Shown here one piece after another: positions 527 to 5,066 of a DNA stretch of 64,000 bases. The first letter of the stretch is position 1. The number at the start of each line of letters is the position of its first letter. A program made the position numbers and the translations under genes. The stretch is from positions 1,512,502 to 1,576,501 of the forward strand of contig NZ_JARUQS010000001.1 in the NCBI RefSeq assembly GCF_029767755.1, read 5' to 3'. This DNA comes from Thiomicrorhabdus sp. zzn3 (GTDB lineage: Bacteria > Pseudomonadota > Gammaproteobacteria > Thiomicrospirales > Thiomicrospiraceae). Under the pieces are notes generated by a model. It had not been told where the DNA came from and ran no database searches. It was given only the letters and a program-made list of their open reading frames with translations.

Positions 527-626
527 AACAAACCTATCTCTGCAAAGGGTCTTTTTACATTAAGAGCGCTATTCTAACAACATTTAGTTTGTTGCGGTTA
601 TGAGGTTTCTATTTAGACACCTTAAA

Positions 627-1937
627 TTAGACAACTTCTCCTCGGCCCACGCCAAAGTAGCGGAAACCTTGCTCCATAATAACATCCGGCTCATAAATAT
701 TACGCCCATCAAAAATGACTGGGCGCTTCATGCGTTGTCTCATCAAATCATAGTCCGGACTCCAGAACATTTTCCATTCGGTCAGGATAACGAGCGCGTC
801 GGCCCCATCAAGCGCATCATACATATCCGCCACCAACTCTACTCGGTCATCACCCTGCCAATGCTTCTGAAAATCCGTCATGGCCTTAGGGTCATAAGCC
901 TTAACGGTCGCTCCCTGAGCAACAAAAGCCTGAATCGTCTTCAAACTGGGTGCATTTTCAACCGTTGACGTATTCGGCTTGAAAGACAGCCCCCATACGG
1001 CAATCTTTTTACCTTTTAGCTCGGTATTAAAAAAACGCCAAGCTTTACGGAACAGCACCTCTTTTTGCACTTCGTTGTTACTCAACACGGTTTTTAACAG
1101 ATCTGCGTCATATCCCTTGCTCTGCAATGTATTCACCAGGCTTTTCACATCAGCGGCAAAACTGGGGCCACCGAATCCGCAGCCGGGATAGAGATAGTTA
1201 AACCCAATCCGGTGATCCGAGCCTAAACCTTGACGAACCTCTTCCATGTCAATATCGAAATGCTCCGCATTGTTTGCCAATTCATTAATCAGGCTGATAC
1301 GCGTCGCCAACAGTGCATTCACGGCGTATTTGGTGTATTCTGCGGCGCGGGTACTCATCACCTTCAACTGATCGGTAACTCGATTAAAAGGGCGCATTAG
1401 GTCGCGAATCTGTTTAATCGCTTGAGGATCTTGACTACCAAGAACAATCCTATCCGGCTTCACAAAATCATTAATGGCTGACCCCTCACTGATAAACTCA
1501 GGCATCGCCACCACGGCCACCTTGGCCACCAAACCGCGTTTGGCGAACGCCAATTTGATCTGAGCCTCAAAACGGTCCGCGGTTCCAACCGGAAAAGAAC
1601 TTTGGTTGACCACCAGCACGTCTCCTTCTGCACAGTCCCCAATCACCTGAATCACTTCCTCAGCACGATCCAGACGCCATGAAGGCATGCTTAAAAACAG
1701 TACCTCACCATGGGCGACCCCTTTTTTCCAATCTTCTTCAAAATGTAAACCGCCTTCTTTTACCTGGGTTTGAATCAAATGCTCCAAACCCGGCTCTTCG
1801 CGCGGTAATTCGGCTTTTCTCAGATGTTCAACTCTCCCCGTTCCTATCGGTAAAGCGAATACCTGATTGCCTGTCTGGGCCAAGGCGCCTGCAGTGACCA
1901 AACCACCTAACTCACAACCGAAAACCGACACTCTCAT
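627..1937 (-). CDS. ugd: UDP-glucose 6-dehydrogenase family protein with degenerate active site
   Basis: This 436-residue protein is a full-length UDP-glucose/GDP-mannose dehydrogenase homologue; the family oxidises UDP-glucose to UDP-glucuronate in two NAD-dependent steps. The order of domains is intact: N-terminal Rossmann fold, the MPEF(x3)EG segment (E147, E151), the central helix with K203 and N207, and a C-terminal UDP-binding domain starting KIAVWGLSFKPNTS. Key positions are changed, however. The nucleotide-binding GxGYVG becomes G-C-E-L-G-G (residues 7-12). The catalytic GGSCFPKD becomes G-G-P-S-F-A-A-D (256-263), so the catalytic Cys is Ser259 and the Lys is Ala262. It overlaps the pgi stop by ATGA with a good GGAGG upstream, so it is translated with pgi and galU. 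It may be inactive, a scaffold, or have altered chemistry; family membership is certain, activity is not. Confidence 0.85.
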   Translation of the reverse strand: MRVSVFGCELGGLVTAGALAQTGNQVFALPIGTGRVEHLRKAELPREEPGLEHLIQTQVKEGGLHFEEDWKKGVAHGEVLFLSMPSWRLDRAEEVIQVIGDCAEGDVLVVNQSSFPVGTADRFEAQIKLAFAKRGLVAKVAVVAMPEFISEGSAINDFVKPDRIVLGSQDPQAIKQIRDLMRPFNRVTDQLKVMSTRAAEYTKYAVNALLATRISLINELANNAEHFDIDMEEVRQGLGSDHRIGFNYLYPGCGFGGPSFAADVKSLVNTLQSKGYDADLLKTVLSNNEVQKEVLFRKAWRFFNTELKGKKIAVWGLSFKPNTSTVENAPSLKTIQAFVAQGATVKAYDPKAMTDFQKHWQGDDRVELVADMYDALDGADALVILTEWKMFWSPDYDLMRQRMKRPVIFDGRNIYEPDVIMEQGFRYFGVGRGEVV

Positions 1938-3565
1938 TTTGCAATCCTCCTAATCAAGTTCGCAGTCGAAGCATCAAAGCTTTCGGCTAACGATGGGGTT
2001 TTAATGGCGGCATGGGTCTCTTTGGCAATTAATTTACCGAGCTCAACCCCCCATTGATCGAAAGGGTTGATTTCCCAAATGACTGATTCCACAAAGGTCT
2101 TATGCTCATAAAGTGCCACCAACATACCCAGAGTCTTAGGAGAAATGGTTTTTAATAAAATGGTATTTGACGGCTGATTCCCCGGATAATGTTTAAACGG
2201 CGAGTCAAACTGAGACTTAATGGAATCCGGAATCGCAGCATCTCCAAGCATCAAAACCCGTGATTGTGCAAAGCAGTTTGCCATCGCCAGCTCATGCTGA
2301 TAACGTAAACTCTCATCTTTTTCCGAATGAGAATTCCGATCAAAATCATCTCTTTCAACCGGAGCGATAAAGTCACACATCACCGCCTGAGTCCCCTGAT
2401 GTAATAGCTGATAGAATGCATGCTGGGCATTGGGCCCCACCTCACCCCAAAGGATTGGACAGGTTTTGTAGTTAACCGATTCACCATTACGATTAACCGA
2501 TTTTCCATTACTTTCCATCACCAGCTGCTCAAAATAGGATGGCAAGTACTTTAAACGCGCATCGTAAGGCAAAATCGCTTTCGCCTGGATATTAAGAAAG
2601 TTGATATTCCAAACATCAATCATTCCCATTAATACAGGCATATTCTGCTCAAGCTCTGCGGTCGCAAAATGGTTGTCCATAATATGGGCCCCTTGCAACA
2701 TTTCCCGAAAACCAGACATCCCCACCTTCAGCGCAATTGGCAACCCAATGGCCGACCACATGGAATAACGTCCGCCAATCCAGTCCCAAAAAAGCAGTTG
2801 ATTCTCTTCAGGAATCCCCCACTCACTCATCATATCTGGCTTGGTCGAAACACCGAGGAAGTGTTGAGACAACAGGGTCTTAGAATCCTTAATCTTTTCT
2901 TTAAGCCAATCCTTGGCCGTCTCTGCATTGGAAAGCGTATCAATGGTCGTAAAGGATTTTGAAGCAAGAACAAATAGAGTCGTTTCTTGATTAAGGCTTT
3001 TTAAAAGATTGGAGGTTTGGGTTCCATCGATTGAAGAAATAAAGTGCAAATTGACTGGAGAACTAATGGTTTGTAGCGCATGTGTGACCATTAAAGGCCC
3101 TAAATCAGACCCGCCGACACCAATATTCACCACATCGGTGATCGGCTTACCACTGTATCCACGCCAGCTTCCTGAACGGATTTGTTCAACAATCGTCGCC
3201 ATCTTATCGAACTGCTGTTCGATTTGTGGCTGCACTTCCAGCGCATAGCCCGATACATCACGGCCTTCAGAACGAATCGCGGAGTGCATCGCCGGTCGGC
3301 CTTCGGTATCATTCACCTCATCCCCGCAGATTAAACGCTTAATCCATTCAGGCAATGACTGCTGGCGGGCCAGCTTCATCAGCAATTGAATCGTTTCTTC
3401 ACTGACACGATTCTTTGAAAAATCCAAAAACAGATCATCTAACTCTATAGAAAAGCGTTGTGCCCGATCTTCTTCAGAAAACAGTGTCTTTAGGTGAACA
3501 CTTCCTGCTCCCTGTTCACAGTGCGCATTTAAAGCCTGCCAAGCATTAGAACTTTCCACACCCAT
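1934..3565 (-). CDS. pgi: Glucose-6-phosphate isomerase
   Basis: The 543-residue protein is a full-length phosphoglucose isomerase, interconverting glucose-6-phosphate and fructose-6-phosphate in the cytoplasm. Recognisable elements are the VNIGVGGSDLGPLM phosphate-binding segment, the ASKSFTT motif (SIS fold), DWIGGRYSMWS, the catalytic-Glu segment QLVMESNGKS, and GEVGPNAQHAFYQLLHQG near the C-terminal active-site region. Length matches the E. coli enzyme (549). Downstream ugd overlaps its stop by 4 nt and galU lies 62 nt upstream, giving a sugar-nucleotide unit: fructose-6-P to glucose-6-P, then UDP-glucose through GalU. In an autotroph this probably serves polysaccharide synthesis from Calvin-cycle hexose; that last point is inference. 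Confidence 0.97.
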   Translation of the reverse strand: MGVESSNAWQALNAHCEQGAGSVHLKTLFSEEDRAQRFSIELDDLFLDFSKNRVSEETIQLLMKLARQQSLPEWIKRLICGDEVNDTEGRPAMHSAIRSEGRDVSGYALEVQPQIEQQFDKMATIVEQIRSGSWRGYSGKPITDVVNIGVGGSDLGPLMVTHALQTISSPVNLHFISSIDGTQTSNLLKSLNQETTLFVLASKSFTTIDTLSNAETAKDWLKEKIKDSKTLLSQHFLGVSTKPDMMSEWGIPEENQLLFWDWIGGRYSMWSAIGLPIALKVGMSGFREMLQGAHIMDNHFATAELEQNMPVLMGMIDVWNINFLNIQAKAILPYDARLKYLPSYFEQLVMESNGKSVNRNGESVNYKTCPILWGEVGPNAQHAFYQLLHQGTQAVMCDFIAPVERDDFDRNSHSEKDESLRYQHELAMANCFAQSRVLMLGDAAIPDSIKSQFDSPFKHYPGNQPSNTILLKTISPKTLGMLVALYEHKTFVESVIWEINPFDQWGVELGKLIAKETHAAIKTPSLAESFDASTANLIRRIAK

Positions 3566-3627: not shown

Positions 3628-4509
3628 TTACTCTGACAACTCTAATTCTTTCAGATAGTTCTTAAAGCCTTCACCCACCTTGGCGTCACGCAAAGCATAT
3701 TCCACATTGGCCTGCAAATAACCTAGCTTATCGCCACAGTCATAACTCTTACCGTCCTTAAATTCAAAACCAAACATCACCTCTTCTTCAAGCAGCTTAT
3801 CCATGGCATCTGTCAATTGAATCTCGCCGCCAGCGCCTGGACGGGTCTGTTTCAATAACTGCATTAATCTTGGGGTAAAAATATAGCGACCTACAACAGA
3901 CAGGTTAGATGGCGCTTCTTCTTGCGAAGGCTTCTCGACCAGCTCGGAAATCCGCAAATCAGGACCTTTAACAGCAGCAATACCATACTTCTCGACCTGA
4001 TCGTCCGGTACCTCTTCTAGAGCCACCACACTGGTGTGCACTTTTTTGTAGGTATCCACCATCTGAGCCAAACACCCTTTTTTAGAGTGATACATCAAAA
4101 CATCAGGCAACAACACGGCAAACGGCTCATTCTCTGCAATAACCGGTTCAGCACACAAAATCGCATGCCCCAACCCAAGCGCCTCAGGCTGACGTACACT
4201 GACAAGTCTCACCCCTTCTGGCGTAATCTCTTGCAGAGGCTCTAAACGCTCCTGCTTTCCTCTCAGCTCCAACTCGGTTTCCAACTCGTAATGTTTGTCA
4301 AAGTGGTTTTCAATCGCCCCTTTACTGGAGTGTGTCACCAAAATGATATCGGTGATCCCGGCCTCGGCCGCCTCATGCACTATATATTGAATCAACGGCT
4401 TATCAACAACGGTAAGCATTTCTTTAGGAATGGCCTTAGTGGCAGGTAAGAAACGGGTTCCTAAGCCCGCAACAGGAAGAATCGCTTTGGTAAGTGGTTT
4501 ATAAGACAT
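3628..4509 (-). CDS. galU: UTP--glucose-1-phosphate uridylyltransferase
   Basis: This 293-residue protein makes UDP-glucose from UTP and glucose-1-phosphate. It opens with the nucleotidyltransferase signature AILPVAGLGTRFLPATKAIPKEML, with K near residue 26 in the KE(M/L) position, followed by VDKPLIQYIVHEA. LPDVLM carries the metal-binding Asp position, and the VEKP and RPGAGGEIQLTDA motifs of GalU are present. Length and ends match E. coli GalU (302). The ATG at 4509 is 26 nt downstream of dsrE2, so it may be co-transcribed with the sulfur-carrier genes, but a separate promoter cannot be excluded. With pgi and ugd it forms the hexose-to-UDP-sugar branch. Confidence 0.97.
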   Translation of the reverse strand: MSYKPLTKAILPVAGLGTRFLPATKAIPKEMLTVVDKPLIQYIVHEAAEAGITDIILVTHSSKGAIENHFDKHYELETELELRGKQERLEPLQEITPEGVRLVSVRQPEALGLGHAILCAEPVIAENEPFAVLLPDVLMYHSKKGCLAQMVDTYKKVHTSVVALEEVPDDQVEKYGIAAVKGPDLRISELVEKPSQEEAPSNLSVVGRYIFTPRLMQLLKQTRPGAGGEIQLTDAMDKLLEEEVMFGFEFKDGKSYDCGDKLGYLQANVEYALRDAKVGEGFKNYLKELELSE

Positions 4510-4535: not shown

Positions 4536-5066
4536 TTAAACAAAAAGACTCTGTGTGGAGGGGGTATGCGCAAAATAGCTTGGGGCACCGGCGAATTCAA
4601 TGCCGTCTATCAGCTCGGATTCGCCAATACCCATTGCCTCGAGCGTCATCTGACAGGCCGTCATCTTAACCCCTAACTCTAAACATAATGCCCGCAGCTC
4701 TTCAATGGGAAGCTGCCCTTGCGCCTTCATTTGCTTCTTAAACGCCGTTGTCGCCAAAGCACTCATACCTGGCAGAGTCCAAACCAGGCCTGGTAAATTT
4801 TGGTTCCAGTCGATTTTTCGGAACCACTGAGGACCTACCGGACTTCTTATCAACATATCCGGCCTTCCAAGCGGGGATATTTTCAAACCACTGGTATCTT
4901 TAAATAAACACTTTAAACCGTAAAAACTGAAAAAAAGCTCAACCTTTTTATCCATCGCAGCGGCTGTACTCGCAAGAATAAAAGAGGCATAGGCCCAGTC
5001 CAGCGTCCCTTTTGACTGAATCAAACTAAATTCATCAGGCAACACTTCAGGAGATTGCTGACTCAT
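4536..5066 (-). CDS. dsrE2: DsrE2-like sulfur carrier (DsrE/DsrF/DrsH-like family)
   Basis: The 176-residue protein belongs to the DsrE/DsrF-like (peroxiredoxin-like) superfamily. It shows the family beginning with a short strand and small-residue helix (YASFILASTAAAMDKKVELFFSFYGL) and the conserved cysteine in the segment VKMTACQMTLEAMGI, about residue 137, which in this family carries persulfide sulfur. The N-terminal 12 residues are variable. Its ATG overlaps the tusA stop by 4 nt, so the two are translationally coupled. The TusA/DsrE2 pairing is known in sulfur oxidisers, where the proteins relay sulfane sulfur in the cytoplasm. Rhodanese and hdr genes that often accompany them are absent from this window, so the downstream acceptor is not visible here. 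Confidence 0.88.
   Translation of the reverse strand: MSQQSPEVLPDEFSLIQSKGTLDWAYASFILASTAAAMDKKVELFFSFYGLKCLFKDTSGLKISPLGRPDMLIRSPVGPQWFRKIDWNQNLPGLVWTLPGMSALATTAFKKQMKAQGQLPIEELRALCLELGVKMTACQMTLEAMGIGESELIDGIEFAGAPSYFAHTPSTQSLFV

Follow-up and report, generated by a model that had tools for sequence, protein, structure and literature searches.

A putative UDP-glucose dehydrogenase pseudoenzyme encoded with pgi and galU in Thiomicrorhabdus and its order

A homologue of UDP-glucose dehydrogenase (UGD), here called psUGD, is encoded directly after the genes for glucose-6-phosphate isomerase and UTP-glucose-1-phosphate uridylyltransferase in the window (the whole stretch of 64,000 nucleotides analysed, from the 2.37 Mb, 6-contig genome of the sulfur bacterium Thiomicrorhabdus sp. 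zzn3). Judged from its residues and their conservation, this protein has almost certainly lost normal UGD activity and is as good as certain to have a function maintained by selection. It probably binds a UDP-sugar, and the chances that it is a pseudoenzyme which both binds a UDP-sugar and regulates the galU-pgi branch are considered evenly balanced. The features discussed are:

627..1937, minus strand: psUGD, UDP-glucose dehydrogenase homologue without catalytic Cys/Lys, NAD motif and VGTP loop (436 aa)
1149..1172, minus strand: codons of G256-D263 (GGPSFAAD), site of the lost catalytic Cys/Lys (counted from the ORF start at 1937)
1902..1919, minus strand: codons of G7-G12 (GCELGG), site of the lost GxGYVG NAD motif (counted from the ORF start at 1937)
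1934..3565, minus strand: pgi, glucose-6-phosphate isomerase (NF001211, 720.1 bits, cut-off 492); its stop overlaps the psUGD start by 4 nt
3628..4509, minus strand: galU, UTP-glucose-1-phosphate uridylyltransferase (TIGR01099, 347.8 bits, cut-off 326.8)
4536..5066, minus strand: DsrE/DsrF-like gene, directly upstream of galU and probably outside the core unit

The psUGD frame starts with ATG, is open over its 436 codons and contains the three Pfam domains of the family (PF03721, PF00984 and PF03720: 106.9, 101 and 105.1 bits vs. gathering scores of 27, 25.4 and 30 respectively). It exceeded the subfamily cut-off of NCBIfam TIGR03026, nucleotide sugar dehydrogenase (311 vs. 189.8 bits), and a match at this family level could make annotation pipelines or metabolic models credit UDP-glucuronate synthesis to the gene. 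The scores against the equivalog models were 314.4 bits for TuaD (NF047673, cut-off 700) and 65.8 bits for PRK15057 (NF011631, cut-off 757), cut-offs which canonical UGDs also failed to reach (L030, 510.4 of 700; the canonical UGD of the zzn3 genome itself, 673.1 of 757). A 122-aa open reading frame antisense to the 3' part of psUGD (window 600-968, plus strand) had no sign of being a gene.

Translation and alignment bore out the residue changes reported in the initial annotation, and the intact gene coupled to pgi that it had described. The catalytic GGSCFPKD site reads G256-G257-P258-S259-F260-A261-A262-D263, with Ser259 in place of Cys and Ala262 in place of Lys, and the N-terminal GxGYVG motif reads G7-C8-E9-L10-G11-G12. 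On top of these, the V-G-T-P loop residues are absent, the Asp of the second β-strand is Pro30 and the canonical R327 is Glu; E147, E151, K203, N207 and D263 are retained, also as annotated. According to an analysis of 229 nucleotide-sugar dehydrogenases with 18 invariant residues (PMC4794789), the VGTP loop of UGD holds the nicotinamide ribose, Thr83, Arg327 and Asp29 are NAD residues, and R244 extends to the partner subunit's glucose. The initial annotation had named Cys253 as a possible relocated catalytic cysteine; this candidate was rejected, as the Cys of PGCGYGG occurs alongside the catalytic Cys in most of the canonical UGDs shown, and elsewhere in the clade the position is V, I, A, L or T.

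Ninety-three homologues were aligned. The Cys was lacking in 61 of them, to which 57 genomes of the order contributed 58 and a second order 3, and was present in 32; one of the latter, the E. coli-type sequence L002, was left out of the residue counts, giving 31 canonical rows. Residue roles were taken from PMC4794789, and its Streptococcus numbering, used from here on, was mapped onto the alignment by motif. As the Cys column served to define the two groups, the count for C260 (0/61) is circular; the other counts are independent of it. The residues for NAD contact and chemistry were largely missing from the psUGDs: G9 and T83 were present in 0/61 (the latter deleted), D29 in at most 1/61 (none among the 60 rows shown), R327 in 3/61, Y10 in 4/61 and K263 in 5/61, and all of these, together with C260, were present in 31/31 canonical rows. 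The Cys column was occupied by S, N, H, Y, D or G, and the Lys column by A, R, E, K, I and S among others. In the opposite direction, K204, N208, R244, N219, G257, G258, N287, K320 and the C-terminal DGRN were found in 61/61 psUGDs, as were G7 and P140; K204, N208, R244 and K320 stay invariant in members with as little as 39% identity to the zzn3 protein. Other positions were partly (D264 60/61, E201 53/61, S117 51/61) or weakly retained (G12 28/61, T118 27/61, E141 21/61), and the pocket differs at E141 (Asp in 39/61), E145 (Asp in 10/61) and Asp/Asn 325 (mostly Thr or Ser). The 18 invariant residues of PMC4794789 comprise G7, G9, G12, T83, S117, T118, P140, E141, E201, K204, N208, N219, G257, G258, C260, D264, N287 and K320; R244, D29, Y10 and R327 are functional residues outside this set. 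Three residues were enriched in the clade: W300 (61/61), R297 (57/61) and Q341 (61/61, and also in 4/31 canonical rows). At the level of sequence, the pattern is one in which NAD-contact and chemistry residues are mostly gone and those predicted to contact the UDP-sugar or shape its loops are mostly kept.

The prediction of the initial annotation, that normal dehydrogenase activity would be absent, is thus supported on a wider basis: across the 61 sequences, the losses comprise the Cys and also the second Rossmann Gly, the Asp for the NAD ribose, the VGTP loop and the Arg for the NAD pyrophosphate. An AlphaFold2 model of psUGD, built on a 33-sequence alignment, had a pLDDT of 93.0 and a pTM of 0.86, and that of a divergent member a pLDDT of 88.8. 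The closest solved sequences were UGDs, first of all BceC (2y0e/2y0c/2y0d), to which the model was similar over most of its length (Foldseek TM 0.95; VIA Z 50.4, rmsd 1.6 over 433 residues, 42% identity). For a predicted model, this match is evidence on fold, not on function.

In the maximum-likelihood tree, a branch with 100/100 support separated the 61 psUGDs from the other sequences, and the same split was obtained after removing the motif regions and L002 (SH-aLRT 100, quick method). The best reading of the sequences is that psUGD arose once from a canonical bacterial UGD and is an ancient pseudoenzyme. Twenty-one pairs were compared for selection; dS was saturated in 6, including the pair of the zzn3 gene itself, and dN/dS was between 0.009 and 0.060 in 14 of the 15 estimable pairs, some of these values being rough as dS was above 2. 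The remaining, distant pair gave 0.221 for psUGD and 0.173 for pgi. Where estimable, dN/dS of pgi was in the same range as that of psUGD, and likewise that of galU in the few pairs having it. The combination of lost activity and purifying selection is well supported by these sequence comparisons, and the selection for another role proposed in the initial annotation is supported by purifying selection, by conservation as one clade through the order and by the close association of the gene with pgi and galU. Conservation is highest in the central domain in both psUGDs and canonical UGDs and does not distinguish them. When pairs were grouped into three bands of overall identity, the NAD domain was somewhat less conserved in psUGDs than in canonical UGDs (0.49 vs. 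0.58, 0.66 vs. 0.69 and 0.82 vs. 0.89; the third band had 5 canonical pairs, and gaps were scored as differences).

The sampled order consists of a single family (62 genomes), 58 of which have homologues of the UGD family. A profile built from 33 members separated psUGDs (at least 566 bits) from Cys-bearing UGDs (at most 496 bits) within the order, and by this measure psUGD was present in 57/62 genomes, which rules out a quirk of one genome. All five assemblies in which it was missing also lacked a complete pgi: four had no match to pgi, and in the fifth pgi was cut by a contig end. The nearest named homologues were those of Thiomicrorhabdus cannonii (82% identity) and T. chilensis (81%), and that of an unclassified Thiotrichales metagenome-assembled genome was also at 82%. 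One genome (G004) carries psUGD on two separate contigs, in one case at a distance of 1.6 kb from pgi; its 4% contamination may explain this. In a class sample of 369 genomes, one further family (G162, G278), belonging to a second order, scored in the psUGD range, and 3 of the 6 genomes of that order have psUGD; the score gap was narrower in this sample, between a motif-checked canonical UGD (L110, up to 515.5 bits) and the lowest-scoring psUGD from that order (560.9 bits). In a phylum sample of 398 genomes, no match besides zzn3 was found at E <= 1e-151, a thin sample from which lower-scoring inactivated UGDs would escape. A tblastn search of plasmids retrieved 765 records, irrespective of catalytic motif, all below 60% identity.

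Upstream of psUGD and on the same strand, pgi was found at 61/61 distinct junctions. At 58 of these junctions the two genes overlapped, abutted or were fused (33 overlapping by exactly 4 nt, 20 by more, 4 abutting within 1 nt and 1 fused), and the other three had gaps of more than 30 nt (196, 1632 and 75 nt, the second at one of the two G004 loci, L049). The fused case (L068:1757-4585, from draft genome G035) is a single 943-aa open frame of pgi and psUGD, which overlap in different frames in its near relative L055; the fusion was set aside as evidence of interaction, being probably the product of a 1-nt indel. Among the distinct psUGD loci, 44 were read over enough DNA to look for galU, and 43 of these have it upstream of pgi (the exception was L052, from G021); 3 further loci end at a contig edge, and the other 14 were read over a shorter distance. 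The DsrE/DsrF-like gene upstream of galU was detected at L032, L033, L037, L041, L140 and L141, and not at some other related loci.

All 3 psUGD-bearing genomes of the second order have galU-pgi-psUGD, and in the 3 without psUGD, pgi is of another type, with 43-47% identity to that of the operon, and adjoins glycogen-type genes as read by eye. The linkage differs for Cys-bearing relatives: four such homologues from within the family (L044, L048, L070, L145) had no pgi nearby, and neither pgi nor galU was found in about 1.5 kb around 24 canonical UGDs of the class (L110-L133), so these loci gave no trace of an ancestral operon of galU, pgi and an active ugd. A gene similar to phosphomannomutase/phosphoglucomutase follows psUGD at the two loci examined (L052, by eye; L055, by Pfam) and would supply the step needed to lead from F6P to UDP-glucose. 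Genus g1 contains two highly divergent forms of galU-pgi-psUGD (L052-L069 and L072-L076 vs. zzn3 and L003-L027): the zzn3 pgi has 77 and 75% identity to those of genera g3 and g6 and 52% to those of two same-genus genomes of the other group, and galU and psUGD have the same two-version pattern; the three genes may have been exchanged together.

A second, canonical ugd, which the initial annotation had suggested looking for, is indeed present in zzn3: an E. coli-type UGD on contig 3 (G000:C3:10601-11764) with GTGYVG and GYCLPKD, adjacent to an ORF which by eye resembles a UDP-glucuronate 4-epimerase. Matches to its model, NF011631, at E <= 1e-60 were obtained in 39/60 genomes of the order, none above the curated cut-off and some partial, the catalytic residues having been checked in the zzn3 genome only. 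At L077:3554-5771, a canonical E. coli-type UGD has a probable UDP-glucuronate 4-epimerase next to it and ORFs resembling glycosyltransferases in its vicinity, as judged by eye. Four genomes have a second, Cys-bearing homologue (L030, L031, L048, L070). These two sets of genomes are what would favour psUGD as an accessory subunit which tunes a canonical UGD by forming hetero-oligomers; four single-contig genomes (G026, G030, G032, G061), however, carry psUGD and have no other homologue at E <= 1e-3 nor any match to NF011631 at 1e-60, and psUGD is therefore not merely the helper of a canonical UGD, a role regarded as very improbable.

The mechanism proposed is that psUGD would be a dimer binding UDP-glucose (or UDP) without converting it, whose bound or unbound state would modulate its operon partners, Pgi and/or GalU, making psUGD a putative feedback sensor of the branch F6P to G6P to G1P to UDP-glucose. 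Regulation of Pgi or GalU is what we infer from gene linkage, and the overlap of the pgi stop with the psUGD start suggests synthesis matched to that of Pgi, which would be the likelier partner. These bacteria are Calvin-cycle autotrophs. In its most specific form, which is held to be unlikely, psUGD would be a UDP-glucose-sensing allosteric subunit of Pgi, gating the drain of F6P from the Calvin cycle towards hexose phosphate and UDP-glucose by the level of the latter.

A structural role was weighed against this sensor, in which psUGD would be a non-catalytic subunit holding Pgi and GalU (or other enzymes) and the pocket would be kept mainly for folding or dimerisation. Operon linkage and overlapping genes agree with it, and the clade-enriched W300, R297 and Q341 could form a partner surface, but a scaffold would hardly need K204, N208, R244 and K320, the contacts to sugar and diphosphate, to be invariant among such distant members, and this role is judged rather unlikely. 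The almost complete retention of K204, N208 and D264 would also suit an enzyme changed to an NAD-independent reaction on a nucleotide sugar by way of the kept Lys, Asn and Asp; the Cys and Lys columns are variable, however, and hold no shared new catalytic group, which leaves this alternative clearly improbable. That psUGD might still be an active UGD through an unrecognised arrangement (another Cys or another NAD site) would fit the intact predicted fold and the active-site residues retained, but an alignment of 33 members contained no Cys position with full or almost full conservation, and G9, T83, D29 and R327 have been lost in all or nearly all, so hardly any likelihood is given to it. A decaying pseudogene or a sequencing artefact would account for the substitutions themselves and for nothing more; decay was refuted by 61 distinct open frames (L049 runs off its contig end), the single clade and the low dN/dS, and both can practically be dismissed.

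If the regulatory reading is true, an enzyme of the pathway has come to sense the substrate which it used to convert, and psUGD offers a handle on how the exit of central carbon to sugars is set; as a subunit of Pgi it would exert nucleotide-sugar feedback on phosphoglucose isomerase, built from a dead dehydrogenase. Searches of open-access papers, a collection without most of the subscription literature, turned up nothing on a UGD or nucleotide-sugar-dehydrogenase pseudoenzyme or on a galU-pgi-psUGD operon, and nothing relevant on Thiomicrospira/Hydrogenovibrio with UDP-glucose or Pgi. As far as these papers go, psUGD is a pseudoenzyme new to a familiar enzyme family and spread across an order.

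The nearest known system is the canonical UGD itself (EC 1.1.1.22; TuaD-like; BceC, PDB 2y0c/2y0d/2y0e), with which psUGD has in common the fold, the three Pfam domains, the length and the UDP-sugar contacts Lys204, Asn208, Arg244, Gly257 and Lys320 (61/61 each), but from which it differs in lacking Cys260/Lys263, GxGYVG with Asp29, the VGTP loop with Thr83, and Arg327, the NAD-pyrophosphate Arg. Loss of catalytic residues together with conservation under purifying selection would class it, by sequence, as a pseudoenzyme. The closest functional parallel may be GalF of enterobacteria, described in PMC4643126 as an inactivated, nearly inactive homologue of GalU, for which contact with GalU and control of the UDP-glucose level have been proposed, with a functional role not clearly established. 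By analogy, both would be inactivated homologues of enzymes of the UDP-glucose pathway; GalF, however, belongs to another enzyme family and has kept residual activity, and psUGD is not a member of the GalF family. The cell-size regulators OpgH and UgtP are also proteins of UDP-glucose metabolism which report the nutrient state, as described in PMC3723540 and PMC5889556, but these are glucosyltransferases acting on cell division, a role of which psUGD shows no sign.
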